Below the pieces are notes generated by a model that ran no database searches, was not told the DNA's origin, and saw only the letters and a list, made by a program, of their open reading frames with translations. Positions 36,360 to 47,842 of a stretch of DNA of 64,000 nt are shown piece by piece. The translations under genes and the position numbers were made by a program. This stretch comes from Chryseobacterium oryctis (GTDB lineage Bacteria > Bacteroidota > Bacteroidia > Flavobacteriales > Weeksellaceae). Within the stretch, counting starts at the first letter, position 1. Each line of letters begins with the position of its first letter. The stretch is from NCBI RefSeq assembly GCF_025971925.1, contig NZ_JAPDHV010000001.1, positions 310,001 to 374,000 on the forward strand. The letters are read 5' to 3'.

Positions 36360-36403
36360 AAAATAGAACCGATAATTTTTATTGGTTCTATTTTTTTAAA
36401 GGT
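36360..36403. terminator. Bidirectional terminator between the HTH pair and the Y-RNA array
   Basis: Arms AATAGAACC and GGTTCTATT, 12 bases apart, are flanked by T runs on both strands. It ends both the plus-strand HTH pair and the minus-strand Y-RNA array, whose last element abuts it. Confidence 0.8.
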
Positions 36404-36536
36404 AATAAGCAAGAAAAGAATTGAATGGCGGGGCACGTCTTGCCGGAGTCGAACCGGATAATCTTGTCGGAGTTACCAACTTCATTATTCCTCCCCTATT
36501 TGTGGACGAAGTATCTTTTCTCTACGACACTTTTAT
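36395..36536 (-). ncRNA. Y-RNA-like element Y8 with tRNA-like domain in normal order
   Basis: The inner helix GAAAAGA/TCTTTTC (514-520 with 413-419 in the 36-kb numbering) is perfect; the outer helix AAAG/CTTT is short. The 5' loop reads TGTCGTAGA, the next strand TACTTCG and the 3' loop CTTATTAC. Between the helices lies a compact tRNA-like domain in normal 5'-3' order. It has GGGG/CCCC acceptor pairing, a D-arm-like AGTT-GGT-AACT and a T arm with TTCGACT (36442-36457), but no anticodon arm. Last member of the array. Confidence 0.7.
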
Positions 36537-36543
36537 TTATCAA

Positions 36544-36689
36544 GAAAACAAGGCAATAAACAAATAGCGCAATGTCGTGCTCTAACCATCTGAGCTACTC
36601 TTCCTGTTTTTTGGTGGAAGAGACGGGATTCGAACCCGTGACCCCGTCGTAATGAGCGAAGTAACACTATTCTACGGCACCTGTTTATA
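36544..36689 (-). ncRNA. Y-RNA-like element Y7 with circularly permuted tRNA module
   Basis: Outer helix AAACAGG/CTTGTTT (one wobble), inner helix AATAGTG/CGCTATT (one wobble), 5' loop TGCCGTAG, next strand TTACTTCG and 3' loop TTATTGC. Inside, reading 5' to 3': T arm ACGGG-TTCGAAT-CCCGT (36623-36639), acceptor strand CTCTTCC followed by ACCA, an 11-nt linker, then acceptor strand GGAAGAG (36598-36604) and a D arm (GTAGCTCAGATGGTTAGAGC). The two acceptor strands pair perfectly but in reversed order, so the module is a circularly permuted tRNA whose anticodon arm is replaced by the Y stem. Confidence 0.85.
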
Positions 36690-36699
36690 TTTTACAAAT

Positions 36700-36820
36700 T
36701 AAAAAAAGAGGCAAAAGACGGGAAAACCTTTTATATAAATCATTTTCAGATTTATTTTGGAGTCGAACCAACATCATAAGATTAACCGAAGTAAGTTTTC
36801 TCTAACGGCACTCTTTTATT
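36700..36820 (-). ncRNA. Y-RNA-like element Y6 with permuted tRNA module
   Basis: Outer helix AAAAGAG/CTCTTTT, inner helix GAAAAC/GTTTTC, 5' loop TGCCGTTAGA, next strand TTACTTCG and 3' side ending TTTTGC. The module has a T arm TTGG-TTCGACT-CCAA (36757-36771). Acceptor strands ATAAATC (36749-36755) and GATTTAT (36735-36741) pair perfectly across a 7-nt linker, in permuted order. The D arm is degenerate, making this the most eroded of the permuted modules. Confidence 0.75.
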
Positions 36821-36821
36821 T

Positions 36822-36971
36822 TTAAATCAAGGTAATAATTGTAGAATCTTCCGTGCATTTGCTCTACCCGCTGAGCTACTTCTCCTTTTCGAGGGAAAAG
36901 GCAGGACTCGAACCTGCGACCCAATGTTTACTCAATCTCGAAGTATGATTCTAAGACGACACTTGATTATA
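36822..36971 (-). ncRNA. Y-RNA-like element Y5 with permuted tRNA module
   Basis: Outer helix AATCAAG/CTTGATT and inner helix TAGAATC/GATTCTA are both perfect. The 5' loop is TGTCGTCT, the next strand TACTTCG and the 3' loop TTATTAC. Inside are a T arm GCAGG-TTCGAGT-CCTGC (36901-36917), acceptor 3' strand CTTTTCC (36894-36900), an 8-nt linker, acceptor 5' strand GGAGAAG (36879-36885; one wobble) and a D arm GTAGCTCAGCGGGTAGAGC. The order is permuted as in Y7. Confidence 0.85.
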
Positions 36972-36978
36972 TATTTTC

Positions 36979-37054
36979 AAAATCGAGCAATAAAAGAAAG
37001 AGTCTTTATTTTCAATTGGAAGTCGAAGTAACTCTTTTCAACGGCATCGATTGT
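36979..37054 (-). ncRNA. Y-RNA-like element Y4 (short form)
   Basis: A minimal form of about 76 nt: outer helix AATCGA/TCGATT, inner helix AAAGAGT/ACTCTTT, 5' loop TGCCGTTGA, strand TACTTCG after the inner helix and 3' loop TTATTGC. The apical loop holds no tRNA module. It shows the core architecture of the family most plainly. Confidence 0.8.
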
Positions 37055-37193
37055 TTTAAGTAAGGTAGGAATTCAAACAGAACTTGTATACGGTACGCTA
37101 CCAATTACGCCATCTGTATGTGCTCCAGAACAGGATTCGAACCTGTATAACCGCTCCTAACGAAGTAACTCTGTTTTACGACACTTACTTTAT
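37055..37193 (-). ncRNA. Y-RNA-like element Y3 with tRNA-like module
   Basis: Outer helix AAGTAAG/CTTACTT and inner helix AAACAGA/TCTGTTT are perfect. The 5' loop is TGTCGTA, the next strand TTACTTCG and the 3' side ends TTCCTAC, a variant of TTATTRC. A T arm ACAGG-TTCGAAT-CCTGT (37130-37146) precedes a D-arm-like GTAATTGGTAGCGTAC. The acceptor helix between them is weak (TCTG/CAGA), so permutation is likely but less clear than in Y5 to Y7. Confidence 0.75.
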
Positions 37194-37194
37194 A

Positions 37195-37271
37195 TTAAAT
37201 AGTTATTATTTTTTATTAAGGCAAAATTACTACCTTAGTGCGCATTATATTTACGCAGTTGAATTTATTTT
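37195..37271 (-). ncRNA. Possible degenerate element between Y2 and Y3
   Basis: This 77-nt gap in the array has a small hairpin (TAAGG with CCTTA) but lacks TGYCGT and TACTTCG. It may be a decayed array member or spacer. Confidence 0.25.
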
Positions 37272-37359
37272 TAAAACCAAGTAACAATTTTAAGAGTTTT
37301 GAATGTTATTCAAATTTTAAGTTTGACGATGAAACTCTTACATAACGACATTGGTTTAT
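37272..37359 (-). ncRNA. Y-RNA-like element Y2 (short form)
   Basis: Outer helix AAACCAA/TTGGTTT (7 bp) and inner helix TAAGAGTTT/AAACTCTTA (9 bp), both perfect. The 5' loop is TGTCGTTATG, the next strand TTTCATCG (a variant of TACTTCG) and the 3' loop ATTGTTAC. No tRNA module. Confidence 0.75.
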
Positions 37360-37436
37360 TTAAACCGAGCAATATAGTGAAAAGACTCATATTCAATTAA
37401 AAGTCGAAGGATTTCTTTTCTACGGCATCGGTTGTT
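37360..37436 (-). ncRNA. Y-RNA-like element Y1 (short form, first in array)
   Basis: Outer helix AACCGA/TCGGTT, inner helix GAAAAGA/TCTTTTC, 5' loop TGCCGTA, next strand TCCTTCG and 3' loop TATATTGC. It is the first array element after the TROVE gene in the direction of transcription and has no tRNA module. The whole array follows TROVE by about 360 nt, with no T-tailed terminator between, so co-transcription is likely. Confidence 0.8.
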
Positions 37437-37799
37437 TATGTTTTGTTCGTTTTGCCTTGAAGCAAAAGAACCAAAATTCAAGACTTGGAAACTCCGGCTA
37501 AAAATAACCTATACTCTCTAAAAATTCTAAAACTTGTGCGAATTTAATATTTACTCTTCATTTCTCTATTTATGTCGCGCTTCGAACAATAGAATTTTCT
37601 TAACGTTCGTATAGCTTATTTTCTTAACGCCTACATTTCCTAGGTCAGTTTATTTCATCTGGGTCTTTCCTAGCTTACCTAATTTTAAATTTAGTTCTTG
37701 TTTTCTTTTTTCCAATTTTTAGGTTGAATAAAAACAAAAGCGGGAAATAGCTTCTAAAAAATTAATGGTTATTAGTTTTATTTTTAAAAGCAGTGCCTT
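37437..37799 (-). other. TROVE to Y-RNA spacer with hairpin and short repeats
   Basis: This spacer has no frame of note. A hairpin at 37445-37471 pairs GTTC-TTTTGC with GCAAAA-GAAC around a single bulged base. Short direct repeats occur: ATTTTCTTAACG twice (near 37590 and 37630) and TTTCCTAG twice (near 37650 and 37670). The last flanks a possible CTAGG hairpin. These may be processing signals or decayed RNA elements. Confidence 0.4.
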
Positions 37800-39317
37800 T
37801 TACAGCACTACTTTTTTAATCATTTCTACTGCTGATTTTCGATCTTCCAAAGCGTTCAGTACATCGAAAATTTTGTCTGACCAACCTGCAATAAGATATA
37901 CATCATTTTTTCTGACATCCAACGGTTGTTTTCCGTAACCTGCCAAATCAAAAATATACAATTTTGCATTCGGATTGATTTTTTTATACTGATTCCATGA
38001 ATTTTCAAAGGAATTACCTCCTCTGTTGCTATCCCAAAGCTGAGTATCAGTGAACAACATTACTTTATCCACGATTTCTTTTCTTTTAATCAAATCTTCA
38101 ATTACCAGATAACCGTTCGTAGAATAACCAACCTCACCTTCTCTTTTATAGAAAGCATCTACATTTCTCAGTATACCATTTTTAGGCATCGGAACTCTCT
38201 TCCAACGGTCACCAAACATACCCGTGATAACATTTTTGCACTGTGACTGCAAAATCATCGACATCAACAAACCTATATCATACAACAGAACTTTAGATTT
38301 TGGAGACACTGATTTTTGCATAGAACCCGATACGTCTGCTGCAATCACAACCGAAGTATCAAAGCCAAAACCTTTGATGTTTTTTGCACTCATCATCACT
38401 GCATCTTCCAAGGCTTCCAAAATTGATGACAGATATTTTGAATCAATATTTTTCAGTTCTCTATACGCCGCCAAAAATCTGAAAGGCAATTGTTTTGAAT
38501 TTTTCACTGCTTTTTCATCCGACAGATAATTACATACTTTATAAATCGCATCGGAGGAAACATTAGCCTCCAAGATATTTCTCAGGTTTCGCAAGGTTGC
38601 CATATAACCTAGTTTATTACTGAAAATCAGTTCTTCCCATTTGTTTTTAAATGCTGATTTTCTGTCTGCATCATTAGCAAATTTTTGCTGACCCAAAACC
38701 GAAAGTTCAACTTCCCAAGTGTATGGAGTTTCCAACGTATCGTTTACAATTTTGTTGAAAATTGTTTGTTGATTATCATCTTTTGCTTTCGGGTGAACCA
38801 AAAACAATGCATCTTTCAATGTTACATCTGCTTTTCTGTTGTATTTTGCGAATTGATATTCATCAAATTTATTGAAAGATTTCACCAAACCTTTTTGGAT
38901 TTGCTTTGAAAGTTTATTCAGTTTTTTAACCTCTGTTCTTTGGTTAGCCAATTGGTAATACGCTAATAACTCGGTGATTTCATCTGCTCTTTGAACAACT
39001 CCGTCAACAGTTCTGCTTACCAAATCTGTACCCGAAACCTGCTTTGCCAATTCAGTCGTCAACACCAACGGAATAGAGCGCAAATGCATATCTTTTCTTG
39101 CATACACCGCCAATTTCGCAACAAATTCTGGGTCGTTTTTCAAAATCAGAGACTGAATTCTCGCCAATCTGTCATTTCCTTTTTCATAAGTAGTATTTGA
39201 TAATCCTGTTGTAACAACAGCACTGTATAATTCTTCCGCAGGTGTCATTGTATATGCTTTCGCACCTTCGTAGTTCACCACTACTTTATTCTCTTTTCTA
39301 AAAAAATTAAATTTCAT
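37800..39317 (-). CDS. rsr: TROVE domain protein (Ro60/Rsr orthologue)
   Basis: The protein is 505 aa from ATG 39317 (MKFNFFRKENK); the more distal ATG at 39392 lies upstream of the -7 box. The N-terminal TROVE HEAT-repeat ring (about residues 20-330) includes LYSAVVTTGLSNTTYEKGNDRLARI, DLVSRTVDGVVQRADEI and LRNLRNILEANVSS. A C-terminal vWA domain carries the MIDAS motif AADVSGSMQ. Ro60 proteins bind Y RNAs and misfolded or 3'-ended RNAs and tether exonucleases such as PNPase for RNA surveillance. The eight Y-RNA-like elements downstream fit this exactly. The promoter carries a perfect palindromic operator shared with two other units. Confidence 0.95.
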   Translation of the reverse strand: MKFNFFRKENKVVVNYEGAKAYTMTPAEELYSAVVTTGLSNTTYEKGNDRLARIQSLILKNDPEFVAKLAVYARKDMHLRSIPLVLTTELAKQVSGTDLVSRTVDGVVQRADEITELLAYYQLANQRTEVKKLNKLSKQIQKGLVKSFNKFDEYQFAKYNRKADVTLKDALFLVHPKAKDDNQQTIFNKIVNDTLETPYTWEVELSVLGQQKFANDADRKSAFKNKWEELIFSNKLGYMATLRNLRNILEANVSSDAIYKVCNYLSDEKAVKNSKQLPFRFLAAYRELKNIDSKYLSSILEALEDAVMMSAKNIKGFGFDTSVVIAADVSGSMQKSVSPKSKVLLYDIGLLMSMILQSQCKNVITGMFGDRWKRVPMPKNGILRNVDAFYKREGEVGYSTNGYLVIEDLIKRKEIVDKVMLFTDTQLWDSNRGGNSFENSWNQYKKINPNAKLYIFDLAGYGKQPLDVRKNDVYLIAGWSDKIFDVLNALEDRKSAVEMIKKVVL

Positions 39318-39378
39318 AATTACTGTTTTTTTGTTAAACATTATCGGAGAATTGTCATCTTCTCTCTGATTTCTGATG

Positions 39379-39417
39379 CAAAGTAAAAACATAATTACGC
39401 AATCATTTTGCGTAATT
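39379..39417 (-). promoter_or_regulatory. TROVE promoter with palindromic operator
   Basis: The minus strand has -7 box TTACTTTG (39379-39386). Six bases upstream lies an operator with perfect 10-bp arms AATTACGCAA (39393-39402) and TTGCGTAATT (39408-39417), 5 nt apart. It covers roughly -18 to -42. The same ACGCAA/TTGCGT core, at the same distance from the -7 box, occurs at 42093-42127 and 57775-57810. Confidence 0.8.
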
Positions 39418-39524
39418 AAAAATTTTATAAAATTTTTCTATTATTTGTTTCGAATAAAGAAATTAACGGTTCTCAATTTTTGGAAATTCGTTTTTTAGCT
39501 TTGTTTATATCAAAAGAATAAGCT

Positions 39525-39971: not shown

Positions 39972-39972
39972 A

Positions 39973-40008: not shown

Positions 40009-40009
40009 T

Positions 40010-40201
40010 AGCCTTGATGAGACTCGAACTCACATTCCCTACTGGCATTGCGGCTGTAAATACGCTTCCCTACTTTCCCTAAACAATTTCGGTGCATCTG
40101 TAAACTCTACCCATTAGTCCGCGCAGGTCTAACCGGAATATCCGCAAACTCTACGGTTAGTAAATTTTACCGTAGGCTTTTCCTTTTAAGCTACAAGGCT
40201 G
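40010..40201 (-). ncRNA. 192-nt tRNA-like RNA with large insert, downstream of the SPFH gene
   Basis: The ends form a tRNA frame: acceptor AGCCTTG/CAAGGCT (7 bp, perfect), D arm GCTT/AAGC and T arm GTGAG-TTCGAGT-CTCAT. In place of a normal anticodon arm and variable loop there are about 125 nt. This insert contains a CTACGGT/ACCGTAG hairpin, a TTGCGG/CCGCAA closing helix and a nested D-arm-like ACT-AATGGGTAG-AGT. The phrase AAACTCTAC followed within 4 nt by TTAGT (plus strand) occurs twice, hinting at an internal duplication. It lies 57 nt after the SPFH stop. Published surveys of RNA repair describe SPFH proteins linked to a novel tRNA-like RNA, which this may be. It is not tmRNA: no tag frame or alanine-type acceptor. 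Confidence 0.7.
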
Positions 40202-40258: not shown

Positions 40259-41356
40259 CTATTTTGCAAAAATTTCTTTTAACTGAGAGACAATATTACT
40301 GTTTCCGGAAACGGTAATATCTCCAATTTTGTCGGCAATTTTTTCCATATATTCCATTTCTTTCAGCTTCCAAAGAACTTCATTTTCTTCCATCAATTTT
40401 GCTGTATTCAGCAAACTTCTGGTAGAAGCTGTTTCTTCACGTCTCATAATGGTATTTGCCTGAGCTTTTTTCTCAGCAATCAAAACCTGATTCATAATTT
40501 CCTTCATTTCACCAGTCAAAATAACATCTCTAATTCCTGCATCAGAAACTTTCAGTCCTAAATCATCAGCTTTGTTTCCAAGATTTTCAAGAATTTCTTT
40601 TCCTACGTTATCTTTCTTCACCAGCAACTCATCCAAAGTCAATGCTCCGACAAATTCACGCAAAGCCAACTGCATCAGAATATACAATTGCTTGTCATAT
40701 TCTTTGTTTTCCATCAATGCTTTTTCGATGTTTTCCACCTGAAAACGTACATAAAAGTTGATACGAAGCATCGCCTTATCTTTCGTTAACAATTCCTGAC
40801 CTGCAATTTCCATTTGTTGCATTCTTGTATCAATAGATTTTACATCAACAGAAATTTCGTTATTCCAGAAGTAATAAGTTCCTGAATCAAGCACCTTTTC
40901 CAATTTACCATCAATCAACAGCAAGCCTTTGTACTGATTTGTTATTACGAATTTCCTTATGAAATTTTTCAATTTCATATTTTCAAGAATCGTTTTGGAG
41001 ATTTTTTCTGTAATCTCAACTTTCGTTAAGTCTATTTTTTGAAATTCTCTGTTCAAAATTCCTTTCCAGAAAGCATATTGTCCTACATTCAAGACCTCTT
41101 TGAAAATTCCTTTTTCATACAACAAAACAATCTCCCCATCTTTTACCTCTATCACTTCCAGCATAGAAACCAAGGTTTCATTCTTCAATAAAAGGTCAAT
41201 ATCATTTTCTGAATTGAATTTATTTTTCATCTCATGAATTTCCACTGATTTATTCCCAAAAATCCAATATTTACCTTCTTTCAAAACATCAATTAAGTTT
41301 CCGTTTTTGAAAACCAACCCTGTTTCATTAGCCTTAATTTGTACGTTCTTTATCAT
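40259..41356 (-). CDS. SPFH/band-7 (slipin-like) protein of RNA repair type
   Basis: This 365-aa protein has an SPFH/band-7 domain (about residues 140-310; VDVKSIDTRMQQMEIAGQELLTKDKAMLRINFYVRFQV and LNTAKLMEENEVLWKLKEMEYMEKI at the end). It has no N-terminal membrane helix, unlike classical slipins or stomatins; instead there is a repeated beta-rich N-terminal part. Soluble SPFH proteins with TROVE, RNA ligase or RtcB neighbours are recognised in RNA repair loci as likely ring-shaped scaffolds for a tRNA-like RNA. Here the RNA is directly downstream (40010-40201) and TROVE lies close by. Confidence 0.88.
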   Translation of the reverse strand: MIKNVQIKANETGLVFKNGNLIDVLKEGKYWIFGNKSVEIHEMKNKFNSENDIDLLLKNETLVSMLEVIEVKDGEIVLLYEKGIFKEVLNVGQYAFWKGILNREFQKIDLTKVEITEKISKTILENMKLKNFIRKFVITNQYKGLLLIDGKLEKVLDSGTYYFWNNEISVDVKSIDTRMQQMEIAGQELLTKDKAMLRINFYVRFQVENIEKALMENKEYDKQLYILMQLALREFVGALTLDELLVKKDNVGKEILENLGNKADDLGLKVSDAGIRDVILTGEMKEIMNQVLIAEKKAQANTIMRREETASTRSLLNTAKLMEENEVLWKLKEMEYMEKIADKIGDITVSGNSNIVSQLKEIFAK

Positions 41357-41735: not shown

Positions 41736-41765
41736 TAAAAAATAGATTTTGAGTCTATTTTCAAC
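41736..41765 (-). terminator. Terminator of the tandem tRNA-like RNA
   Basis: Minus-strand arms AAAATAGA and TCTATTTT around CTCAAAA are followed by a T run. Confidence 0.75.
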
Positions 41766-42087
41766 CTACGTTAAAAATGTAGTGCTCTGACCAGACTGAG
41801 CTACCTCGTGCGAAACGAGAGTGGGATTCGAACCCACGCAAAAATCTATTGTTCTACCATTGAACTATATCCCCTTTCGAGAGATAGAAGGACTCGAACC
41901 TTCACCCGATAGAGCCGTGTGAGATTTTTTGGAAAACCTCGAAACCTTCAAGTCAAGCTGAACAGAATAAATTTATGTTTCTCAACAAATTCCTCTGCAA
42001 TAGTGCTATACAGAAACACCCAACTAGACCTGCCTGATATTTTGACTAAAATCTGTTTTTCAAAATTTTAGTATTATTTCATTTTGA
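41766..42087 (-). ncRNA. RNA with tandem permuted tRNA-like modules (Lys-type anticodon TTT)
   Basis: Transcription from the -7 box at 42093-42100 to the terminator at 41736-41765 gives an RNA of about 350 nt. It contains, 5' to 3', a T arm GAAGG-TTCGAGT-CCTTC (41887-41903), acceptor strands TATCTC and GGGATA around a short linker, and a D arm GTTCAATGGTAGAAC. A second T arm GTGGG-TTCGAAT-CCCAC (41821-41837) follows, then acceptor strands CTCGT/ACGAG around TTCGC, a D arm GTAGCTCAGTCTGGTCAGAGC and an anticodon arm with loop TTTTTAA (TTT). Both modules are in T-acceptor-D order, i.e. permuted. The 5' part folds into CAGGTC/GACTTG and GTTTCT/AGAAAC helices. It lacks the TGYCGT/TACTTCG marks of the Y1-Y8 family. 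Confidence 0.75.
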
Positions 42088-42092
42088 TGATG

Positions 42093-42127
42093 CAAAGTAA
42101 ACGACCAATTACGCAATCTTTTTGCGT
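42093..42127 (-). promoter_or_regulatory. Promoter of the tandem tRNA-like RNA, shared operator
   Basis: The minus strand has TTACTTTG (42093-42100) followed by GCATCA, identical to the TROVE promoter, and TTGCGTAATT (42107-42116) exactly 6 nt upstream. The far half ACGCAA lies after 5 nt. Spacing to the -7 box is the same as at TROVE. Confidence 0.8.
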
Positions 42128-42163
42128 TCTAATTTTTATTTTGATTTTTTATATAAAAACAAA

Positions 42164-42212: not shown

Positions 42213-42764
42213 TTAGTATTGATTTAAACACCAATATAAAATCTTCGCAATATTTTTGGCATCATCTACGCCTCTATGGTGAGTACCTTCAAGTTTGAGA
42301 TTCAATTCTCCTAAAGCTCTCGCCATCCCAACGCTTTTGCGTACAGTTGGATGCAATTCTCCAAATAAAGTCTTTACATTAATATGGTCATAACTCAAAG
42401 GATAATCTAAATTGAATCTTCTTGCCTGATTTTGAAGCATATTCAAATCATAGTTTCCGTAACTAGCCCAAGTCAGGTCTTCTGAATCATATTCTGCTCT
42501 CAGGATATCAAAAGCATCATCCAGCAAAACGCCTTCATCATCAAGCATTTTCTGGGTAATAGAAGTAAGTTCCGTACAAAAAGGACTTACTTTTGAAAAT
42601 TGAGGTTTTACTAAAATCCCCTCATTTTGTGAAATCTCACCAGTTTTTGCATTCATAATACATACACCGATTTCTATAATTTCACTTTCCTGACCTCTTG
42701 GCGGTCGGTCATCCCAACACGTTGCCTCAAGGTCTATAATTAATATATTATCTGTTGTTTTCAT
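42213..42764 (-). CDS. DEDDh 3'-5' exonuclease (ERI-1/KapD-like)
   Basis: This 183-aa protein has the DEDDh set: IIDLEATCW (Asp and Glu, residues 11 and 13), ASYGNYDLNML (Asp) and HHRGVDDAKNIA (His and Asp). The phrase DLEATCWDD with EIIEIG is typical of the ERI-1/KapD group, whose members trim structured RNA 3' ends. Within an RNA repair neighbourhood it probably processes 3' termini of damaged RNA or of the array RNAs; this is inference. It follows the phosphoesterase gene by about 100 nt. Confidence 0.9.
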   Translation of the reverse strand: MKTTDNILIIDLEATCWDDRPPRGQESEIIEIGVCIMNAKTGEISQNEGILVKPQFSKVSPFCTELTSITQKMLDDEGVLLDDAFDILRAEYDSEDLTWASYGNYDLNMLQNQARRFNLDYPLSYDHINVKTLFGELHPTVRKSVGMARALGELNLKLEGTHHRGVDDAKNIAKILYWCLNQY

Positions 42765-42799: not shown

Positions 42800-42863
42800 G
42801 ATGTAAGAAAACTATAGCTTCTGCAATGCATATTTCTCTTTGGCATCCAACTTTCCTTACATC
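42800..42863 (-). repeat. Long stem-loop between phosphoesterase and exonuclease genes
   Basis: Arms GATGTAAGGAAA and TTTTCTTACATC (12 bp, one wobble) enclose a 40-nt loop with a small TTGG/CCAA pairing and the phrase GCAGAAGCTATAG. That phrase resembles the GCAGAAGATCTTTA loops of the hairpin RNAs at 46 kb. Could be a terminator, a processing site or another small structured RNA. Confidence 0.4.
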
Positions 42864-43426
42864 TAATTTCTTGGCGCAAACGGTGGCGTCCATTTTTTCT
42901 TTTTCATCACTTCTTTCACTTCTTGGTAAGAAATGGGATAGAAATGATGACAATCTACTCCGACATCAATGCTTAAAGCCATTTCATCATCAGGTAGTGT
43001 TCCGTGTGAATGCCCGTAAAGCTGCCAGATTCCACGATGAGAGCCGTTCCATGTCCGCATGGAATAATGAAAAAGAATAATCTTTTGTTTTCCCTGATTC
43101 GCTTCTTCATCTTCTACATAAAGTTCATGATAATCTTTAATCCACTCAAATCTGTCGGGTACCCGAAGAGCGGAATATTCGTGATTCCCTTTTATTAAAT
43201 GAATTTTGCCATTCAATTTACTTAAGACTTCCTTTGTAAAATCCGGTTTACCTAAACTCACATCACCTAAATGATAAACAATATCGTTGACATCAACTTT
43301 CTCATTCCATCTTCTGATAAGTTCTTCGTTCATTTGTTCCAAAGACTCAAAAGGTCTTTCGGAGAATTTTATAATATTTTCGTGACCAAAATGATGGTCC
43401 GCCGTAAAAAATATATTTGGTTTCAT
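42863..43426 (-). CDS. Calcineurin-like metallophosphoesterase
   Basis: This 187-aa single-domain phosphoesterase has the metal-binding blocks TADHHFGHENII, HLGDVSLG, LIKGNHEYS and LFHYSMRTWNG...LYGHSHG. The short size and HHFGHENI opening are typical of the small phosphoesterases often carried by phages and repair loci. In RNA repair, a phosphatase or phosphodiesterase is needed to remove 2',3'-cyclic or 3'-phosphate before ligation. Its position right after the RNA ligase gene suggests that role; direct evidence is lacking. Confidence 0.88.
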   Translation of the reverse strand: MKPNIFFTADHHFGHENIIKFSERPFESLEQMNEELIRRWNEKVDVNDIVYHLGDVSLGKPDFTKEVLSKLNGKIHLIKGNHEYSALRVPDRFEWIKDYHELYVEDEEANQGKQKIILFHYSMRTWNGSHRGIWQLYGHSHGTLPDDEMALSIDVGVDCHHFYPISYQEVKEVMKKKKWTPPFAPRN

Positions 43427-43455: not shown

Positions 43456-43486
43456 AAAAGTTTCGATAAATACTTACCGAAACTAA
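43456..43486 (-). terminator. Terminator after the RNA ligase gene
   Basis: Minus-strand arms AGTTTCG and CGAAACT with a 12-nt loop, followed by six T. It begins at the ligase stop codon and separates it from the phosphoesterase. Confidence 0.7.
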
Positions 43487-44499
43487 ACTTTTAGAGTCAT
43501 AAATTCTTCTTTTATAACTTTAATTACTAAAGAATTCAATTTTTTATTGATTCTCTTTTGTTCTTCTTTTTCAATAGTTGTGAAAACTTCCGGGAAATCC
43601 TTTTCAAAATCATCCAAAATATCCTGTGCAAAAAGACCAATGATTTGTCCCATCATTTTAGGCTCAAATTCACCAACCTTGCTTACAACATTATTCAGCC
43701 TGTTTGCAGTTGCATATTTTTGAATTTCATCCCAAATATTCTGACCTTTTTCACTAAAGTTGATTTGTTTTTGAACAGTTTTATTCTGCTTTCTTTCAAC
43801 TTTAGATTTTTCAACCCATTTTTCATTCTTGTTTTTCAGAATTACTCTTGAGCCGTTTCCAAAACATCTGGTTTTCAAAGTTTTCACAATGGTTCCTTCA
43901 CACATATTATTTTCCAATTCAGGCAGTCCCAACCAAGTCGGAATTTTAGAATTGAAAACATTCGGATACTTCAAAACCTCTTCCAAAGTTCCCTGAAACA
44001 AAATTCTTGCATAGAAAAATCCTGTTTCTTCAAAAACTTGATTAGCCAAATCTATATCCAAATAAGTAATACCATTTAACTTGATATCAAAAGCATAAAA
44101 TTCGTTGTAAGGTGCATATTCAATACCTTTCTGCACTTTCAACGCACTTTTTACAGGTACTACTTCTTTATGTTTGTAACCTCCTCCGAACAATTCACCA
44201 TAGATAGCCACAGTTTCAACATCCGGATGAAGAGTTTTCACTTTTTCGAACACATCCTTTACATTATTTCTGTAACGTTCTAAAATCTGATGTGCATTGA
44301 AGAACTTTTCATCTTTTTCGATGAAAGCGGTTCTTTTTCCAATTCTAATTTCCTTTCCGTCGGTAAAGAAAGAGAAATTAGCTCCGTGAACTTTTTCTTG
44401 TACTATGAAAACCTCATCCCCAAAACCCTGCATTTTGATTTGCTCAAGCACACGGGTTTGATAAGCATTTTCAATAGAATTATATGTTTTGAAAATCAT
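43483..44499 (-). CDS. T4 Rnl2-type RNA ligase
   Basis: This 338-aa protein closely follows the T4 Rnl2 layout (334 aa). It has motif I EKVHGANFSFF with nucleotidylated Lys36, motif Ia IRIGKRTAF, motif III AIYGELFGGGY, motif IV CEGTIVKTL and motif V RVILKNKNEKW, then a helical C-terminal domain. Rnl2 enzymes seal 3'-OH/5'-phosphate nicks in duplex RNA, or in RNA held by a guide. It overlaps the DinB-fold gene by ATGA, so the two are translationally coupled. The operon lies immediately downstream of the tRNA-like array at 45.6-47.3 kb. A ligase for cleaved tRNA in that context is a strong inference. Confidence 0.95.
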   Translation of the reverse strand: MIFKTYNSIENAYQTRVLEQIKMQGFGDEVFIVQEKVHGANFSFFTDGKEIRIGKRTAFIEKDEKFFNAHQILERYRNNVKDVFEKVKTLHPDVETVAIYGELFGGGYKHKEVVPVKSALKVQKGIEYAPYNEFYAFDIKLNGITYLDIDLANQVFEETGFFYARILFQGTLEEVLKYPNVFNSKIPTWLGLPELENNMCEGTIVKTLKTRCFGNGSRVILKNKNEKWVEKSKVERKQNKTVQKQINFSEKGQNIWDEIQKYATANRLNNVVSKVGEFEPKMMGQIIGLFAQDILDDFEKDFPEVFTTIEKEEQKRINKKLNSLVIKVIKEEFMTLKV

Positions 44500-45068
44500 T
44501 TTTTTAAATTTTTAATAGTTTCTAATTCATTATTTTTCATCTGGGTAACATGTCTCTGAGCGTGAAGTGAAAGAAAATAAATGTATTCATACACATTAAT
44601 TTTCCCCAATTTGTTCACAGTCATTGTCGTTTTGCAGAGAAGACCTTCGCCGTTTTTCATCAAGTCTAAATAATTTAAACATTGATGATATTGTTGAGAA
44701 ATTAAATTCCTGATTTCAGTTAATTTTAATTCTACTTTCGGCTCCATGTGTTCTGGTCTTATCCATTCAAAAGTGCCATACTCACCTACTTTTTCAAACT
44801 TTTCTGGATTGAAACTGTAATTTTTTATTTCAAGATTTAAATCAAGACCAAGATAATTTCGCCCCGCTTTTTTTGAACCTTTCTCAATCAAAATCAACAA
44901 ATAAAAATTTGTCAAATAGATATGTTCTAAAATCTGCTGAATCGTCCAACCTCCATTTGATGGCTGATAATTCAATGTCTTATTATCTTTATCAAACCAT
45001 CTATCAACCTCATCAAAATTGAGTTTTAAATGTGTTTTTATATCTTGAATTAATCTAAAAATGTCCAT
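44496..45068 (-). CDS. DinB-like superfamily protein
   Basis: This 190-aa four-helix-bundle protein has the DinB-like features: GGWTIQQILEHIYLTNFYLL near residue 40 (first metal His) and LHAQRHVTQMKN near the C-terminus (two further His). DinB-fold proteins are metal-dependent and often act in thiol transfer or damage response. This one is coupled to the RNA ligase by ATGA overlap. Its role there is unknown; it could modify or protect RNA termini. Confidence 0.85.
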   Translation of the reverse strand: MDIFRLIQDIKTHLKLNFDEVDRWFDKDNKTLNYQPSNGGWTIQQILEHIYLTNFYLLILIEKGSKKAGRNYLGLDLNLEIKNYSFNPEKFEKVGEYGTFEWIRPEHMEPKVELKLTEIRNLISQQYHQCLNYLDLMKNGEGLLCKTTMTVNKLGKINVYEYIYFLSLHAQRHVTQMKNNELETIKNLKK

Positions 45069-45095
45069 TATAATTTTTTTTTAGCTATACTTTAC

Positions 45096-45581
45096 TTAAA
45101 CCATCATATCAGCACAGTTTGAACTCGCGAATGCATAAGGTTTCGCTTTAAACACATATCCCATTCCCAGAATATATCCCATTGCATCTTTCAAAGCTAC
45201 ATTGGATTTGAAATCCGGATCGGTATTAATATCTGCGTGCACCTCCATTTCTACCCCATAAGCATCCAAAATAGAGCAAATAGCATATGCAATTTCTACG
45301 GATTTGTTTACCTCATTCAACATTCTTTCCTTGATACTGATACTCTGTATTTCTCTCTCTTTTCTGATAAAGGTAAACGCTCCTTTTCCCTCACGAATAA
45401 AGACAACTGCCGTTGCATAACTGATAGCATCACCATAAACGTGGGAGTCTGAACCCACACAAACCTTCAGTCGATGCCCGTTTGCCTGTTCGCGGATTAT
45501 GGCATCTTCTACCAGTTGTTTGATAGATTTCTGGAAAATTTTCCCATTCATATTCTGCCATGTTTGTTGTTGCGTTTCCAT
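45096..45581 (-). CDS. YkuK-like protein (DUF458, RNase H fold)
   Basis: This 161-aa protein matches the YkuK/DUF458 family, a predicted RNase H-like nuclease fold: VCVGSDSHVYGDAISYATAVVFIR (first acidic strand), SIKERMLNEVNKSVEIAYAI, EMEVHADINTDPDFKSN and LKDAMGYILGMGYVFKAKPYAFASSNCAD. It should be a nuclease or nucleic-acid-binding factor. It lies 27 nt upstream of the DinB-fold gene and about 55 nt after the last tRNA-like gene, so one transcript may run from the tRNA array into this operon. Confidence 0.85.
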   Translation of the reverse strand: METQQQTWQNMNGKIFQKSIKQLVEDAIIREQANGHRLKVCVGSDSHVYGDAISYATAVVFIREGKGAFTFIRKEREIQSISIKERMLNEVNKSVEIAYAICSILDAYGVEMEVHADINTDPDFKSNVALKDAMGYILGMGYVFKAKPYAFASSNCADMMV

Positions 45582-45635
45582 TTTTCTACATGTTTTAAAT
45601 TTTGTTTTGTTTAAATATTAAATTGTTAATTTCTG

Positions 45636-45758
45636 TTGACTCATCAGGATTGTTCATGAGTTTTATATCTTATTTAAAGAATTCACGAATGCTCCGCATT
45701 TCGAACCTGAACAACAAGAGTCAAAGTCTTGTGTGCTGACCAATTACACCATGAATCA
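45636..45758 (-). tRNA. tRNA-Gln-like (TTG) with structured T-loop insert
   Basis: The acceptor TGATTCA/TGAGTCA pairs over 7 bp (one wobble). The anticodon arm CAAGA-CTTTGAC-TCTTG (anticodon TTG) and T stem TCAGG/CCTGA are perfect. After TTCGAA in the T-loop there is an insert of about 48 nt (45651-45699) before the T-loop closes. The insert folds as ATGC-GGA-GCAT plus TCGTGA/TCATGA with an AT-rich loop. Nearly the same insert sits at the same place in the next gene, with compensatory base changes. A normal T-loop cannot form unless the insert is removed or bulged. Confidence 0.8.
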
Positions 45759-45824
45759 GATTTAGAGTTATGAATTATTAATTATAAGTTTTGAGTTTTG
45801 TCTATTATTATAATTCATATTTTG

Positions 45825-45946
45825 TGGAACAGACAGGATTGTTCATGAATTTTATATTTATTTATAGTATTCACGAATACTTCGTATTTCGAACCTGTAC
45901 CTTTAGTTTTTCAGACTAACGTGCAGACCTGCTACACCACTCTTCC
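45825..45946 (-). tRNA. tRNA-Phe-like (GAA) with the same T-loop insert
   Basis: The acceptor GGAAGAG/CTGTTCC pairs with one mismatch. The anticodon arm TTAGT-CTGAAAA-ACTAA (anticodon GAA) and T stem ACAGG/CCTGT are perfect. An insert of about 48 nt (45840-45887) in the T-loop folds as ATAC-GAA-GTAT plus TCGTGAAT/ATTCATGA. Compared with the Gln-like copy, the first hairpin differs by paired changes (ATGC/GCAT to ATAC/GTAT), which supports a conserved RNA structure. Confidence 0.8.
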
Positions 45947-45973
45947 AATTTTTCATAAGTTGTTTACATTTTG

Positions 45974-46047
45974 TACGGAAGGAGGGACTTGAACCCCCAA
46001 AACCTTGAGCCTAAATCAAGTGTGTCTGCCAATTCCACCACTTCCGC
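45974..46047 (-). tRNA. tRNA-Leu-like (TAG) lacking the long variable arm
   Basis: Acceptor GCGGAAG/CTTCCGT and anticodon arm CTTGA..TCAAG with loop TTTAGGC (anticodon TAG, Leu). The variable region is only about 6 nt, whereas bacterial tRNA-Leu is class II with a long extra arm. It is 74 nt long, so it may be an altered tRNA not meant for normal charging. Confidence 0.8.
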
Positions 46048-46063
46048 ATTTTGATAAGTAGTA

Positions 46064-46155
46064 AGGTCTGAGAAGGCTTGCCTTTTAATAAACTATGCCT
46101 GTTAGTGTTTTATAAAGATCTTCTGCGCTTGGCAACGTCTTTCTCTTTCCTGTCT
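46064..46155 (-). ncRNA. Array hairpin RNA 1
   Basis: A stem with core GTTGCC/GGCAA and outer GAGAA/TTCTC (imperfect in between) encloses a loop that starts AAGCGCAGAAGATCTTTATA on the minus strand. The start of the loop is conserved with hairpins 2 and 3. It lies between the Leu-like tRNA and the tRNA at 46258. Confidence 0.65.
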
Positions 46156-46257
46156 TAACTTATCTTTTATGAAAACCTAATAAATACTATTCCCAATTTG
46201 AATTTTCATGATATTTGTAATTTAAAATCGATTTATTAACTCTTCAAATTATTTTGA
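46156..46257. other. AT-rich spacer in the tRNA array
   Basis: About 100 nt with no clear tRNA arm or hairpin; possibly remains of a lost array member. Confidence 0.3.
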
Positions 46258-46328
46258 CCAACTGACTAGGAATCGAACCTAAACAACAAGAGTACATTTC
46301 CTGCATGCTGCCATTACATTATCAGTGG
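46258..46328 (-). tRNA. tRNA-like RNA, isotype uncertain
   Basis: Acceptor CCACTGA/TCAGTTG has one mismatch. A D arm ATGT/GCAT and a T arm TTAGG-TTCGATT-CCTAG are present. The anticodon arm CAGGA-AATGTAC-TCTTG gives TGT in the standard frame, but position 33 is A instead of the universal U. The isotype is therefore doubtful and the molecule may not decode. Confidence 0.65.
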
Positions 46329-46334
46329 TGTTTG

Positions 46335-46418
46335 TGGAAGTAGTAGGATTCGAACCTACTCAACAATGAAGCAACAGATTTACAGTCTGCCCCGACTCTC
46401 CAACTTCGGCGTACTTCC
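46335..46418 (-). tRNA. tRNA-Tyr (GTA)-like
   Basis: Acceptor GGAAGTA/TACTTCC is perfect. Anticodon arm CAGA-CTGTAAA-TCTG gives GTA, the variable arm is long (class II, as normal for Tyr) and the T loop is TTCGAAT. 84 nt, close to a normal tRNA-Tyr. Confidence 0.85.
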
Positions 46419-46431
46419 TTTTAATTTTTTG

Positions 46432-46505
46432 GAAGAAAACAAAGCCTGTCTTTATTTTTTGTTTGATATAAGAACTTCTACGCTCGACAAACTTTTATTT
46501 TCTTC
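46432..46505 (-). ncRNA. Array hairpin RNA 2
   Basis: A stem of about 19 bp (GAAGAAAA with TTTTCTTC outside; AAAG and TGTC pairs inside, with wobbles) encloses a 35-nt loop. The loop begins GAGCGTAGAAGTTCTTATA on the minus strand, matching hairpins 1 and 3. Arm sequences differ while pairing is kept. Confidence 0.75.
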
Positions 46506-46531
46506 TGAACTAATCTCATTTTAGTTATTTG

Positions 46532-46613
46532 AGATGGTTATGGGATTCAAACCCACTCAGCTTACACAACGGTTTTGCAGACCGCCCCGACTCTTCCACT
46601 TCGGCGAACCATC
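46532..46613 (-). tRNA. tRNA-Cys-like (GCA) on a Tyr-type body
   Basis: Acceptor GATGGTT/AACCATC is perfect and the anticodon loop CTGCAAA gives GCA (Cys). The D region CCGAAGTGGAAGAGTCGGGGC and extended variable region resemble the Tyr-like gene at 46335 rather than a normal class I tRNA-Cys. 82 nt. It looks like a Tyr-type tRNA with a changed anticodon. Confidence 0.75.
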
Positions 46614-46618
46614 AGATT

Positions 46619-46692
46619 GAAAAGAAAAGTTTGTCTATTTTTTCGTATTTTTGGCGTAAAGATCTTCTGCTCTTGACAAACCTTTTCTTTTC
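46619..46692 (-). ncRNA. Array hairpin RNA 3
   Basis: Arms GAAAAGAAAAG-GTTTGTC and GACAAAC-TTTTCTTTTC pair over 17 bp with one bulged G. The 39-nt loop begins AAGAGCAGAAGATCTTTA on the minus strand. It is the clearest of the three copies. A bulged stem of this size is reminiscent of Y-RNA termini, but the loop family is different from Y1-Y8. Confidence 0.8.
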
Positions 46693-46721
46693 TCTTTTTT
46701 GAAACAATTAACATTTATTGG

Positions 46722-46793
46722 CGATTCCGGAACAACTTGAACTTTCAACTTCTGGTTTAACAGACCAGCACTCTACCATTGAGCTACGAAATC
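46722..46793 (-). tRNA. tRNA-Asn-like (GTT)
   Basis: Acceptor GATTTCG/CGGAATC (one wobble), D arm GCTC/GAGT, anticodon arm CTGGT-CTGTTAA-ACCAG (GTT, Asn). The T stem is weak (GAAAG/TGTTC with a mismatch), and the loop is TTCAAGT. 72 nt, discriminator G. Confidence 0.8.
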
Positions 46794-46799
46794 TTTTGC

Positions 46800-46870
46800 A
46801 CTCCATAAGAGAATCGAACTCTTATTTACTGCTCGAAAGGCAGCCGTCCTAAACCATTAGACGAATGGAG
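46800..46870 (-). tRNA. tRNA-Glu-like (TTC)
   Basis: Acceptor CTCCATT/TATGGAG (six of seven pairs). The anticodon arm GCTGC-CTTTCGA-GCAGT gives TTC (Glu) and the T arm AAGAG-TTCGATT-CTCTT is perfect. It begins only 7 nt after the Asn-like gene's 5' end in plus coordinates. Confidence 0.8.
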
Positions 46871-46877
46871 TAAATTG

Positions 46878-46949
46878 TCTGAAAAGCAAGATTCGAACTT
46901 GCGACCTCCCGCGTCCAAGGCGGGTAAACAACCACCTTTATCTTTCCAG
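46878..46949 (-). tRNA. tRNA-Pro-like (TGG)
   Basis: Acceptor CTGGAAA/TTTTCAG (one wobble), anticodon arm CCCGC-CTTGGAC-GCGGG (TGG, Pro) and T arm GCAAG-TTCGAAT-CTTGC perfect. 72 nt. Confidence 0.82.
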
Positions 46950-46969
46950 TTTTGCAGATCCACTTTAAA

Positions 46970-47012
46970 ATCTTTTCCGAGAGACAGTCGGATTCGAAAT
47001 TTTCCGTAAATC
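46970..47012 (-). ncRNA. tRNA-Asp-derived fragment
   Basis: This segment repeats the anticodon arm of the adjacent Asp-like gene (CCGACTGTCTCTCGG) next to a T-loop-like TTTCGAATCC, but has no acceptor or D arm. It looks like a partial duplication. Confidence 0.5.
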
Positions 47013-47017
47013 TTTTG

Positions 47018-47089
47018 CGGTCTATGCGAGAATCGAACTCGCAGTGCCCGAGAGACAGTCGGGAAGGTTAGCCGTTACCTCAATAGACC
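47018..47089 (-). tRNA. tRNA-Asp-like (GTC)
   Basis: Acceptor GGTCTAT/ATAGACC is perfect. The anticodon arm CCCGA-CTGTCTC-TCGGG gives GTC (Asp), the discriminator is G as in normal tRNA-Asp, and the T arm GCGAG-TTCGATT-CTCGC is perfect. The D arm is unusual (GAGGTAACGGCTAACCTT). 72 nt. Confidence 0.82.
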
Positions 47090-47096
47090 TTATTTG

Positions 47097-47169
47097 TGAT
47101 TCCGACAGGATTTGAACCTGTAACCCTGGGTTTAGAAAACCCATGCTCTATCCATTGAGCCACGGAACC
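47097..47169 (-). tRNA. tRNA-Arg-like (TCT)
   Basis: Acceptor GGTTCCG/CGGAATC (one wobble), D stem GCTC/GAGC, anticodon arm TGGGT-TTTCTAA-ACCCA (TCT, Arg) and T arm ACAGG-TTCAAAT-CCTGT perfect. 73 nt; close to a functional tRNA. Confidence 0.85.
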
Positions 47170-47173
47170 TTTG

Positions 47174-47247
47174 TAATCCCAGAAGGACTTGAACCTTCAG
47201 CCTTCGACGTATCAGGTCGATACTCTAACCAATTGAGCTATGAGTTT
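47174..47247 (-). tRNA. tRNA-Ile-like (GAT)
   Basis: Acceptor AAACTCA/TGGGATT has one mismatch and one wobble. The D stem is GCTC/GAGT, the anticodon arm TCGAC-CTGATAC-GTCGA gives GAT (Ile) and the T arm GAAGG-TTCAAGT-CCTTC is perfect. 74 nt. Confidence 0.8.
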
Positions 47248-47257
47248 TTATAATTTT

Positions 47258-47330
47258 GGGTATCTCCGGGGATCGAACCCTGTTCTTCGGTGCCACAAAC
47301 CGACGCTTTACCAAATAAGCTAGAGAAACC
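47258..47330 (-). tRNA. tRNA-His-like (GTG), first in array
   Basis: Acceptor GGTTTCTC/GAGATACC has one mismatch and an extra 5' G position as in tRNA-His. The anticodon arm TCGGT-TTGTGGC-ACCGA (GTG, His) is perfect; the T stem has one mismatch. 73 nt. It is the first tRNA-like gene in the direction of transcription, right after a terminator-like hairpin. Confidence 0.8.
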
Positions 47331-47331
47331 A

Positions 47332-47362
47332 TAAAAAAAGCGCCTCTTTTTAGGAGGCGCTC
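47332..47362 (-). terminator. Terminator-like hairpin directly before the tRNA array
   Basis: Minus-strand arms AGCGCCTC and GAGGCGCT with a short loop are followed by seven T. It lies downstream of a promoter at 47584-47591 and immediately upstream of the first tRNA-like gene, so it either ends a short leader transcript or acts as an attenuator for the array. Confidence 0.8.
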
Positions 47363-47385
47363 GATATTTTAGACGTGTCAGTTCA

Positions 47386-47517
47386 TTAGCTGACCCATAT
47401 ATATAAGCACCTTTTATCCACAAATTCACTATCAAAAATACATGCATACCCTAGTCCCATCGGTAGTAGACTGCGTTGTCTTGAATATAGATTTGATATG
47501 GTATGTAATTGTTTCAT
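47386..47517 (-). CDS. Possible 43-aa leader peptide or untranslated leader RNA
   Basis: An ATG frame (MKQLHTISNLYSRQRSLL to YIWVS) of 43 codons lies between a promoter box and the terminator-like hairpin before the tRNA array. Codon use is not convincing, and another frame reads equally well for part of it. It may be a leader peptide, a remnant or non-coding leader. A GTCAG/CTGAC hairpin overlaps its end. Confidence 0.25.
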   Translation of the reverse strand: MKQLHTISNLYSRQRSLLPMGLGYACIFDSEFVDKRCLYIWVS

Positions 47518-47583
47518 TTTATTTTTCTTGTTTTAAAAAGTTTTTTGAAAAGCTGAAAACTTGTTGCTTTCAATTTTCGGTTG

Positions 47584-47591
47584 CAAAGTAA
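47584..47591 (-). promoter_or_regulatory. Candidate promoter of the tRNA array
   Basis: The minus strand reads TTACTTTG followed by CAACC, the same -7 form as the TROVE and tandem-RNA promoters but without the ACGCAA operator upstream. Confidence 0.5.
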
Positions 47592-47842
47592 ATATGAAAT
47601 TTTTAATCTCACAAATTTATTTTTTACTTAACTTTCTGAAAACCACTTAATTAAATACAAACATAAGAATAAGAAGTATCTGTCCGCAATATTTTGCAGA
47701 TAGCTTAAATACCTAAATGACTGTCTCTCATCGGTTTAGTTATCACTCTTTATTTTCTTATTGTTTGTTCATTATTAATTAAAAAATTTTCATCTTTTTG
47801 GTTATTTTTTTTCATTCTAAATAATTTTCACTCTAAAAACAC
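47592..47842. other. AT-rich stretch upstream of the tRNA array
   Basis: About 250 nt of AT-rich sequence; I see no frame or structured element in it apart from the terminator that borders it on the right. Confidence 0.35.

Follow-up and report, generated by a model that had tools for sequence, protein, structure and literature searches.

The 64,000-nucleotide (nt) stretch of DNA analyzed here, referred to as the window, comprises bases 310001-374000 of contig NZ_JAPDHV010000001.1 within the 3.5 Mb genome of Chryseobacterium oryctis. On its minus strand a locus for RNA surveillance and repair is found, in which an array of tRNA-like genes is followed by an operon encoding an Rnl2-family RNA ligase. 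This array is preceded by two tandem leader units (47333-48049, minus strand), which lie partly outside the coordinates given in an initial annotation of the locus. Judged from their sequence, the two leaders are likely transcription attenuators, which would sense the shortage of almost any charged tRNA and thereby gate the array and the ligase operon. Each unit contains a short open reading frame (ORF), called LP1 or LP2, followed by a predicted terminator, and LP1 and LP2 jointly encode all twenty amino acids. If this assignment is true, a leader sampling nearly all 20 amino acids would report on the condition of the entire tRNA pool, as a sensor made solely of peptide-coding sequence. This would also explain how a response to unknown tRNA-cleaving enzymes is possible without recognizing the attacker, and it would give tRNA-like arrays a plausible purpose as induced replacements.

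The leader ORFs and their amino acid coverage, the terminator-like hairpins, the complementary segments and the conservation of all of these can be read directly from the DNA (Table 1). LP1 is the sole ORF with 20 amino acids among the 55 ATG-initiated ORFs of 38-48 codons in the window, and none of the 43-residue segments across three joined real proteins reaches 20. A scan over 864 kb of this genome, with the window included, detected 232 terminator-like sites, 22 of which have a short ORF in front. Among these 22 ORFs, LP1 alone contains 20 amino acids, two unrelated ORFs contain 19 and LP2 contains 18. Since two unrelated terminator-linked ORFs reach 19, a coverage of 18-19 is not unique by itself; the combination of full coverage, conservation and position is. 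The same finder applied to 106 loci yielded 118 distinct sequences that were labelled as leaders by their first residues, which is a broad label, and 17 others. Four of these 17 contain 19 or 20 amino acids, namely two leaders that the label had overlooked, one member of a further leader pair of locus L188 and the end of an exonuclease gene. Each leader furthermore has a probable promoter of its own. The -7 box of LP2 is identical in 12 aligned Chryseobacterium-type loci and reads AATCTTTG in locus L045, while the TACTTTG box of LP1 is the same in these 12 loci and has diverged in L045. TAnnTTTG is the flavobacterial -7 consensus, as reported for Flavobacterium psychrophilum (PMC9723704).

Homologues of both leaders were found in 46 of 48 Rnl2 loci, which are nearly all from Chryseobacterium and originate from one similarity scan of genome contigs. 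Of the remaining two, L038 begins too near to a contig end and L045 has its own pair. The spacing between LP1 and LP2 is 510-518 nt, and 6-18 tRNAs are recognized directly downstream by ARAGORN. Together with the window, the 46 leader-bearing loci form a set of 47, in which the LP1 homologues contain 20 amino acids in 24 loci, 19 in 18, 18 in four and 17 in one, and the LP2 homologues 20 in 31, 19 in 14 and 18 in two. Other ATG ORFs of 38-48 residues from the same loci contain all 20 in 11/984 and 10/987 cases, respectively. Shuffling the residues column by column lowers the mean coverage from 19.36 to 19.07 for LP1 and from 19.63 to 19.19 for LP2; the observed mean was reached by 0/2000 shuffles for each leader, a statistic that ignores kinship. 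Positions at which an amino acid has its single copy in the leader vary less than the others, in LP2 clearly (12/216 vs. 107/865; p 0.003) and in LP1 as a trend (15/154 vs. 192/1285; p 0.09). The pN/pS ratio is 0.37 for LP1 and 0.44 for LP2, and an enrichment is seen in the leaders for some of the rarer codons, for example CTA, ATA and TGC. A run of control codons for one or few amino acids is absent; instead, the leaders hold 16-20 different amino acids.

Beyond these loci, fourteen further ones were obtained, 13 from the same family as the window and one (L175) from another family. The 13 loci as well as locus L131 carry both leaders with 16-20 amino acids, although some may belong to the same species as other records. 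The YkuK gene, which follows the array, was used as a probe and gave hits in 89 genomes among 395 from the class. Among 40 YkuK loci taken from across the class, two (L112 and L131) have the array upstream. YkuK was therefore rejected as a marker of the system, and since 38/40 of these loci lack an upstream array on the same strand, the array-leader system is narrower in its distribution than YkuK. In the family of L112, six genomes in five genera have a strong YkuK match (397 genomes searched).

In seven loci from other Flavobacteriaceae (L112, L175, L186-L189 and L045, the latter from Psychroserpens) each array is again preceded by two leader-terminator units. The leader sequences are divergent from LP1 and LP2, yet all 14 contain 18-20 amino acids; in the order given, the first and second leader have 19/19, 19/19, 19/20, 19/20, 19/19, 20/19 and 19/18. 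Here, the longest frame was chosen as start. The second leaders of L112, L175 and L187 thereby become 69-70 residues long, and from a later ATG they contain 17 amino acids in 43 residues, 18 in 43 and 18 in 46. Several of the first leaders resemble each other, so that perhaps three or four independent sequences are represented.

Terminator-like hairpins start 16-36 nt past the stop codons of both leaders in 47/47 loci (19-30 nt in the case of LP2). Segments able to pair with the 5' arm of the terminator are located inside the leaders, AGGTGCTT in LP1, TGAGGC(G) in LP2, and TGGGCGTTT and AGGAAGGT in L045. For LP1 the best duplex falls on the AGGTGCTT segment in all 47 loci. Sixteen leaders, two each from the window, L045, L112, L186, L187 and L189 and four from L188, were compared with codon-shuffled versions of themselves. 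For the duplex energy, the Fisher p-values combined over eight leaders each are 4e-6 (first leaders) and 2e-5 (second leaders), the lineages being partly related. The end of the duplex is located 6-29 nt ahead of the stop codon in 15 of the 16 leaders. The segment and both terminator arms remain pairable in 51 LP2 and 53 LP1 homologues, which were caught among 63 sequences by a pattern that presupposes similar letters; the changes are mostly to G-U pairs, and six LP2 rows have a mismatch at the segment end. In L036, the segment and both arms are altered together. L004 and L014 read the segment in a shifted frame, yet the AGGTGCTT DNA is kept. The three parts of an attenuator, leader ORF, terminator and mutually exclusive antiterminator, are all present in predicted form.

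The predicted antiterminator lies within the 3' part of the leader, and therefore a ribosome stall anywhere well upstream would count. The coverage of this upstream part was compared to same-length segments from ORFs of the same loci, leaving out the second leaders (LB) of L112, L175 and L187. For the first leaders (LA), the p-values are 0.0025 (L112), 0.0038 (L175), 0.002 (L187), 0.016 (L188) and 0.012 each for L045 and L186. L189 LA has all 20 amino acids within the 29 codons before its antiterminator, which is equalled by 0/35,908 protein segments. For the second leaders the values are 0.0002 (L186) and 0.053-0.065 (L045, L188 and L189), and in the window 0.012 for LP2 and 0.0099 for LP1. 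Furthermore, 33/47 LP2 homologues have at least 19 amino acids in their first 29 residues (null 0.0013).

From this arrangement the following mechanism can be proposed. RNA polymerase would start at the LP2 or the LP1 promoter with a ribosome trailing on the leader. If all aminoacyl-tRNAs are present, the ribosome would enter the 3' part of the leader and mask the antiterminator, so that the terminator forms and transcription ends. On meeting a codon whose tRNA is cleaved, uncharged or missing, the ribosome would stall upstream and the free segment would pair with the 5' arm of the terminator. The polymerase would then continue into the array and the genes for YkuK, the DinB-like protein, Rnl2, the phosphoesterase and the exonuclease. 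Here, the array would supply divergent replacement tRNAs, whereas the enzymes would mend or clear the broken ones. We infer from the DNA that the ribosome stalls, that the polymerase reads through, that damage to tRNAs is the natural signal and that the array tRNAs have the role given here.

Several observations weigh against attenuation by a leader that samples all amino acids. Coverage is imperfect, since the LP2 of the window lacks V and W, both leaders together reach 19 in L045 and L112, and the LP1 of L180, with 34 residues, contains 16 amino acids, the lowest value for LP1. Lost single-copy amino acids reappear elsewhere in the leader no more than expected (compensation test). With the most generous null, 19 of 20 amino acids in 41 residues occur in 3.9% of cases and are not rare, while 20 occur in 0.28% and are. 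Taken over whole leaders, the p-values are 0.0007-0.053 for the first leaders of the other family, 0.0025-0.37 for the second leaders of both groups, and 0.18 for LP2 and 0.006 for LP1 of the window. The mean coverage of the first 27 residues is 15.4 in second compared to 18.3 in first leaders (null 13.8). Upstream of the antiterminator, Trp is missing in 45/47 LP1 homologues, where it follows the segment, and in the LP2 homologues C is missing in 16/47 and V in 14/47. Counting codons at least four before the segment, W is missing from 47/47 LP2 and 45/47 LP1 homologues; if the stall must lie there, Trp is perhaps not sensed. The choice of synonymous codons adds little to the coverage of tRNA classes (25.1 vs. 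23.9 and 24.2 vs. 23.5). Also the duplexes are modest for single leaders, with p-values of 0.0025-0.28 (0.05 for LP2 and 0.13 for LP1 of the window). Over the 47 loci, the fraction of shuffled leaders doing as well is 0-0.075 for LP1 and 0.02-0.43 for LP2. The best duplex is located elsewhere in the LP2 of L001, and in L189 LB, the exception among the 16 leaders, it lies 63 nt before the stop codon. In the LP2 of the window, the TGAGGC core ends 31 nt before the stop codon, too far to be covered by a ribosome resting there, and therefore the masking ribosome would have to be in transit.

Between the two leaders a further RNA element with the boxes GAGACAG and CGGACAG is conserved. It is present as a single copy in the own genome and also in L045, L112, L175, L186-L189, L177 and the Chryseobacterium loci. 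RNAalifold gives no consensus structure for it (energy 0), although hairpins are visible by eye. Within this element, GAGAGACAGTC has an 11-nt complementarity to the anticodon stem-loop of the tRNA-Asp in the array of the window, and the pattern CTGTCTC is present in 28/34 array tRNA-Asp. A small ORF (MKKNN...; 47750-47815, minus strand) lies 3' of the LP2 terminator; a similar one occurs in most aligned Chryseobacterium-type loci and is shortened in L022.

Leader peptides as regulatory devices are well-known from the trp, his, thr and ilv operons, where the attenuators are rich in one to three amino acids. The leaders described here share with them the short ORF, the intrinsic terminator, the competing antiterminator and the coupling of ribosome and polymerase, all in predicted form. 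In contrast, they contain nearly all 20 amino acids, are arranged as two units in tandem and are followed by tRNAs and genes for RNA repair. A T-box leader senses by base pairing whether one particular tRNA is charged; charging would also be read here, where translation itself would sense nearly all tRNAs. In general, bacteria sense single amino acids via leader peptides and broken tRNAs via proteins such as RtcR. Among the matches listed in a search of the open-licence literature, neither a leader containing all amino acids nor such a leader on RNA repair genes was found.

The Salmonella rtc system is related in its gene content. There, the sigma54 activator RtcR, which contains a CARF domain, binds 5' tRNA halves with a cyclic phosphate and controls the rtcBA RNA repair operon, which also holds Ro60 and Y RNA and is switched on by damaged tRNA (PMC7790460). 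RNA repair genes together with Ro60 and Y RNA are common to both systems, whereas the sensor is a protein in Salmonella and, as predicted, a translating ribosome in Chryseobacterium. No RtcB or RtcR was found among the ten proteins scanned with Pfam; no search for RtcR was made in the remainder of the genome. Jumbo phages have been described that carry their own tRNAs and RNA ligases, some also TROVE, against tRNA-cleaving defence (PMC7824862). Own tRNAs plus RNA ligases are likewise found here, in contrast on a chromosome. The closest relatives of the Rnl2 of the window are Chryseobacterium records, the Rnl2 matches in 1379 phage records all have less than 60% identity, and relatives of YkuK were not found in the viral contigs and plasmids searched.

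The array itself was initially annotated as 13 tRNA-like genes with three hairpin RNAs. Twelve elements are recovered by tools, 11 by ARAGORN and the 12th (46258-46328) by the covariance model; the 13th, a Phe-like element with an interrupted T-loop, is visible by eye only. Nine matches are above the Rfam cut-off, and at the gathering score Rfam names only tRNA in the window. Of the hairpin RNAs, two fold better than shuffled sequences (z -2.8 and -3.4), while the third does not (z +1.1), the tested stretch being possibly cut. Most elements are recognized as tRNAs with an anticodon and, by their cloverleaf and T-arm, are candidates for functional tRNAs. Eleven are 58-73% identical to the closest copy with the same anticodon among the other tRNAs fetched from the genome. 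The tRNAs for Glu, Pro, His and Leu are each recognized by ARAGORN in 53-57 of 61 Chryseobacterium-type arrays, that for Met in 13 and that for Ser in 7, while those for Ala, Gly and Val are found in none. This set may be a clue to which tRNAs are attacked. In the seven arrays of the other family, Gly is present in 4, Val in 3 and Ala in 2. By eye, the array tRNA-Gln and the Phe-like tRNA (45638-45760 and 45820-45952, minus strand) have an intron- or REP-like insertion of about 50 nt with a hairpin, which separates GTTCG from AATCC in the T-loop; similar insertions are seen in L045 at about 7690-7870.

The proposed role in RNA surveillance and repair fits the genes of the locus, and the initial annotation further suggested that the tRNA-like elements are decoys, or sensors, which bind tRNA-cleaving enzymes or repair proteins. 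The low identity to the other tRNAs of the cell and the two T-loop insertions would suit such a mimic. On the other side, a conserved leader and its terminator precede the array at a distance of 3 nt, suggesting induction by failing translation, and most elements are recognized as tRNAs with an anticodon. Decoys could be induced as well; nevertheless, we consider this explanation unlikely. The location of the array behind a terminator and a pair of leaders, which had been overlooked and which look like sensors for the supply of aminoacyl-tRNAs, favours replacement tRNAs over decoys.

A second explanation keeps the attenuation mechanism and changes its signal, such that the leaders would respond to uncharged tRNA in general amino acid starvation. 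An attenuator is unable to distinguish an uncharged from a cleaved tRNA, and clues for leader-peptide attenuation upstream of amino acid biosynthesis operons have been reported for F. psychrophilum (PMC9723704). However, the genes downstream do not serve biosynthesis or transport, but encode tRNA-like RNAs and, among other proteins, an RNA ligase, a phosphoesterase and an exonuclease, which renders starvation as the signal rather improbable.

Slightly less probable still is a general response of the leaders to ribosomes that are slow or damaged, owing to antibiotics or nicks in the rRNA, with the broad composition as a by-product. This is suggested by leaders of similar architecture in front of another repair system. 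In L188, a second leader pair (3298-3900) precedes an RtcB-PrfH operon, and in 15/16 loci (L221-L236) a leader of 24-28 residues with a terminator lies upstream of RtcB2 and/or PrfH. These leaders often end in a sequence like ..LRDYF, and the terminator is often AGTCCGAAG..TTTCGGACT. PrfH orthologues (E up to 1e-80) are present in 17 of 249 genomes of the family of L188; most other matches are presumably general release factors. The RtcB2-PrfH operon gives E. coli protection from colicin E3, whose cleavage target is 16S rRNA (PMC9223846), and it resembles the present operon as a repair system for RNA of the translation apparatus behind a leader with a terminator in these flavobacteria. It differs in its 16S rRNA target and in its leaders, which lack broad coverage. 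Over 16 leaders, one of them from L188, the mean of 15.25 amino acids is slightly above the 13.74 expected by chance (median p 0.22), whereas the array leaders mostly contain 18-20, and in LP2 single-copy amino acids are preferentially retained. Therefore, rRNA- and tRNA-repair operons would share the attenuator, and only the tRNA one would need every amino acid.

A reading of LP1 and LP2 as chance ORFs, or as conserved microproteins of an ordinary kind, with terminators merely closing upstream transcripts, would suit the pN/pS values of a functional peptide but is very improbable, since short ORFs just before terminators are uncommon in this genome, each leader has its own -7 box, the peptide sequence diverges across genera while the coverage stays, and the frame-shifted 3' segment of L004 and L014 is kept as DNA.

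Taken further, attenuation by shortage of charged tRNAs leads to a wider proposal, which we hold tentatively. The leaders might represent a new class of regulator, a pan-codon attenuator, selected to contain every amino acid and thereby testing the whole aminoacyl-tRNA pool in a single pass. Two of them would be placed in series, with the GAGACAG box in between matching the anticodon loop of the array tRNA-Asp, and would gate the inducible, sequence-divergent spare tRNAs and the ligase that repairs the broken ones. The sister attenuator without coverage would report ribosome damage to RtcB2-PrfH, so that damage to tRNA and rRNA would be told apart by leader composition.

The minus strand probably comprises three transcription units. 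Unit A (48049-42213) contains, in this order, LP2, its terminator, the inter-leader RNA, LP1, its terminator, the tRNA-like array and the genes for YkuK, the DinB-like protein, the Rnl2 ligase, the phosphoesterase and the DEDDh exonuclease. Unit B (about 42100-40010) contains a tRNA-like RNA, the SPFH gene and a tRNA-like sequence, and unit C (about 39400-36420) the TROVE gene with eight Y-RNA-like repeats. Profile matches confirm all seven protein assignments of the initial annotation, from TROVE and SPFH to YkuK.

Table 1. Features of the locus, ordered from the leaders to the Y-RNA-like repeats
Feature	Coordinates	Strand	Basis
-7 box TATCTTTG, probable LP2 promoter	48042..48049	-	sequence
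Leader ORF LP2, 42 residues, 18/20 amino acids	47901..48029	-	sequence; homologues in 46/48 Rnl2 loci
Predicted LP2 antiterminator core TGAGGC	47935..47940	-	complementary to terminator 5' arm
Predicted intrinsic terminator of LP2	47843..47870	-	GC-rich hairpin and T-run
Inter-leader RNA element	47680..47735	-	conserved in alignments
-7 box TACTTTG, probable LP1 promoter	47584..47590	-	sequence
Leader ORF LP1, 43 residues, all 20 amino acids	47386..47517	-	sequence; homologues in 46/48 Rnl2 loci
Predicted LP1 antiterminator segment AGGTGCTT	47405..47412	-	best duplex with terminator 5' arm
Predicted intrinsic terminator of LP1	47333..47362	-	GC-rich hairpin and T-run; T-run ends 3 nt before tRNA-His
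tRNA-like array with 12 tool-recognized elements, a 13th seen by eye and hairpin RNAs in between	45685..47330	-	ARAGORN, covariance model
YkuK, RNase H-like	45096..45581	-	profile match (PF04308; RNaseH_like)
DinB_2-fold protein	44496..45068	-	profile match
Rnl2-family RNA ligase	43483..44499	-	TIGR02307, 210.7 bits (cut-off 197.15); C-terminal domain PF18043
Metallophosphoesterase	42863..43426	-	profile match
DEDDh exonuclease (RNase_T)	42213..42764	-	profile match
Operator-like dyad, SPFH promoter, 3 mismatches	42107..42131		dyad scan of genome
tRNA-like leader RNA of SPFH	41757..41905	-	62-nt tRNA-model match (41813-41874), 36.8 bits; fold z -1.3
SPFH/Band_7 protein	40259..41356	-	PF01145, 101 bits
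tRNA-like sequence 3' of SPFH	40010..40200	-	sequence only; fold z +0.7 and -1.7
Operator-like dyad AATTACGCAA-N5-TTGCGTAATT, TROVE promoter	39393..39417		only perfect copy in genome
TROVE/Ro60-like protein with vWA domain	37800..39392	-	PF05731, 104 bits; vWA_Ro60, PF25045
Eight Y-RNA-like repeats	36420..37440	-	shared motif TGYCGT..CTTCG/CATCG

The novelty of the locus had been seen in the combination of its parts and in the number of RNA forms at one place. TROVE with Y RNAs and SPFH with a tRNA-like RNA are reportedly modules already known from the work of Burroughs and Aravind in 2016, and the novelty does therefore not reside in them. Their expected co-occurrence with the ligase in other genomes holds, with TROVE in at least 17/48 and SPFH in at least 10/48 Rnl2 loci within up to 10 kb per side, leaving aside matches truncated at a locus end. 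All eight Y-RNA-like elements were located by their motif, which is found at 36529, 36679, 36810, 36961, 37046, 37183, 37350 and 37427 on the minus strand; it is by resemblance that these repeats beside TROVE are considered Y-RNA-like. The tRNA-like RNA assigned to SPFH is supported by the tRNA-model match before the gene, whereas the folding scores both there and 3' of the gene are weak. The tandem permuted arrangement given in the initial annotation would be a reading of the sequence alone.

Units B and C would be neighbouring units with a common operator-like dyad. For AATTACGCAA-N5-TTGCGTAATT, one further site with 3 mismatches exists elsewhere in the genome. In related loci, a dyad of the type TACGCA-N7-TGCGTA lies before the TROVE, SPFH, RtcB or WYL-regulator gene, and 20/84 loci have a copy somewhere (L225 at 4609, L230 at 7758, L045 at 4150, 6119 and 16813, and others). 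A regulator of RNA repair with a WYL domain may bind at this dyad. A gene for such a regulator is present in the own genome (C18:261395-262411; 49% identity). As a control element of the array the TACGCA dyad was rejected, since among the 84 loci it precedes the array leader only in L045.

Two further gene groups adjoin these units. A gene of the VOC/glyoxalase family (39525-39971, plus strand) lies between TROVE and SPFH in opposite orientation and is found near the operon in many relatives; its Fos-type matches are weak and far under the cut-offs. Next to the end of the Y-RNA-like array, two small helix-turn-helix proteins are encoded (35559-36351, plus strand), homologues of which are found in L033, L040 and L041, likewise adjacent to the SulP-type gene.

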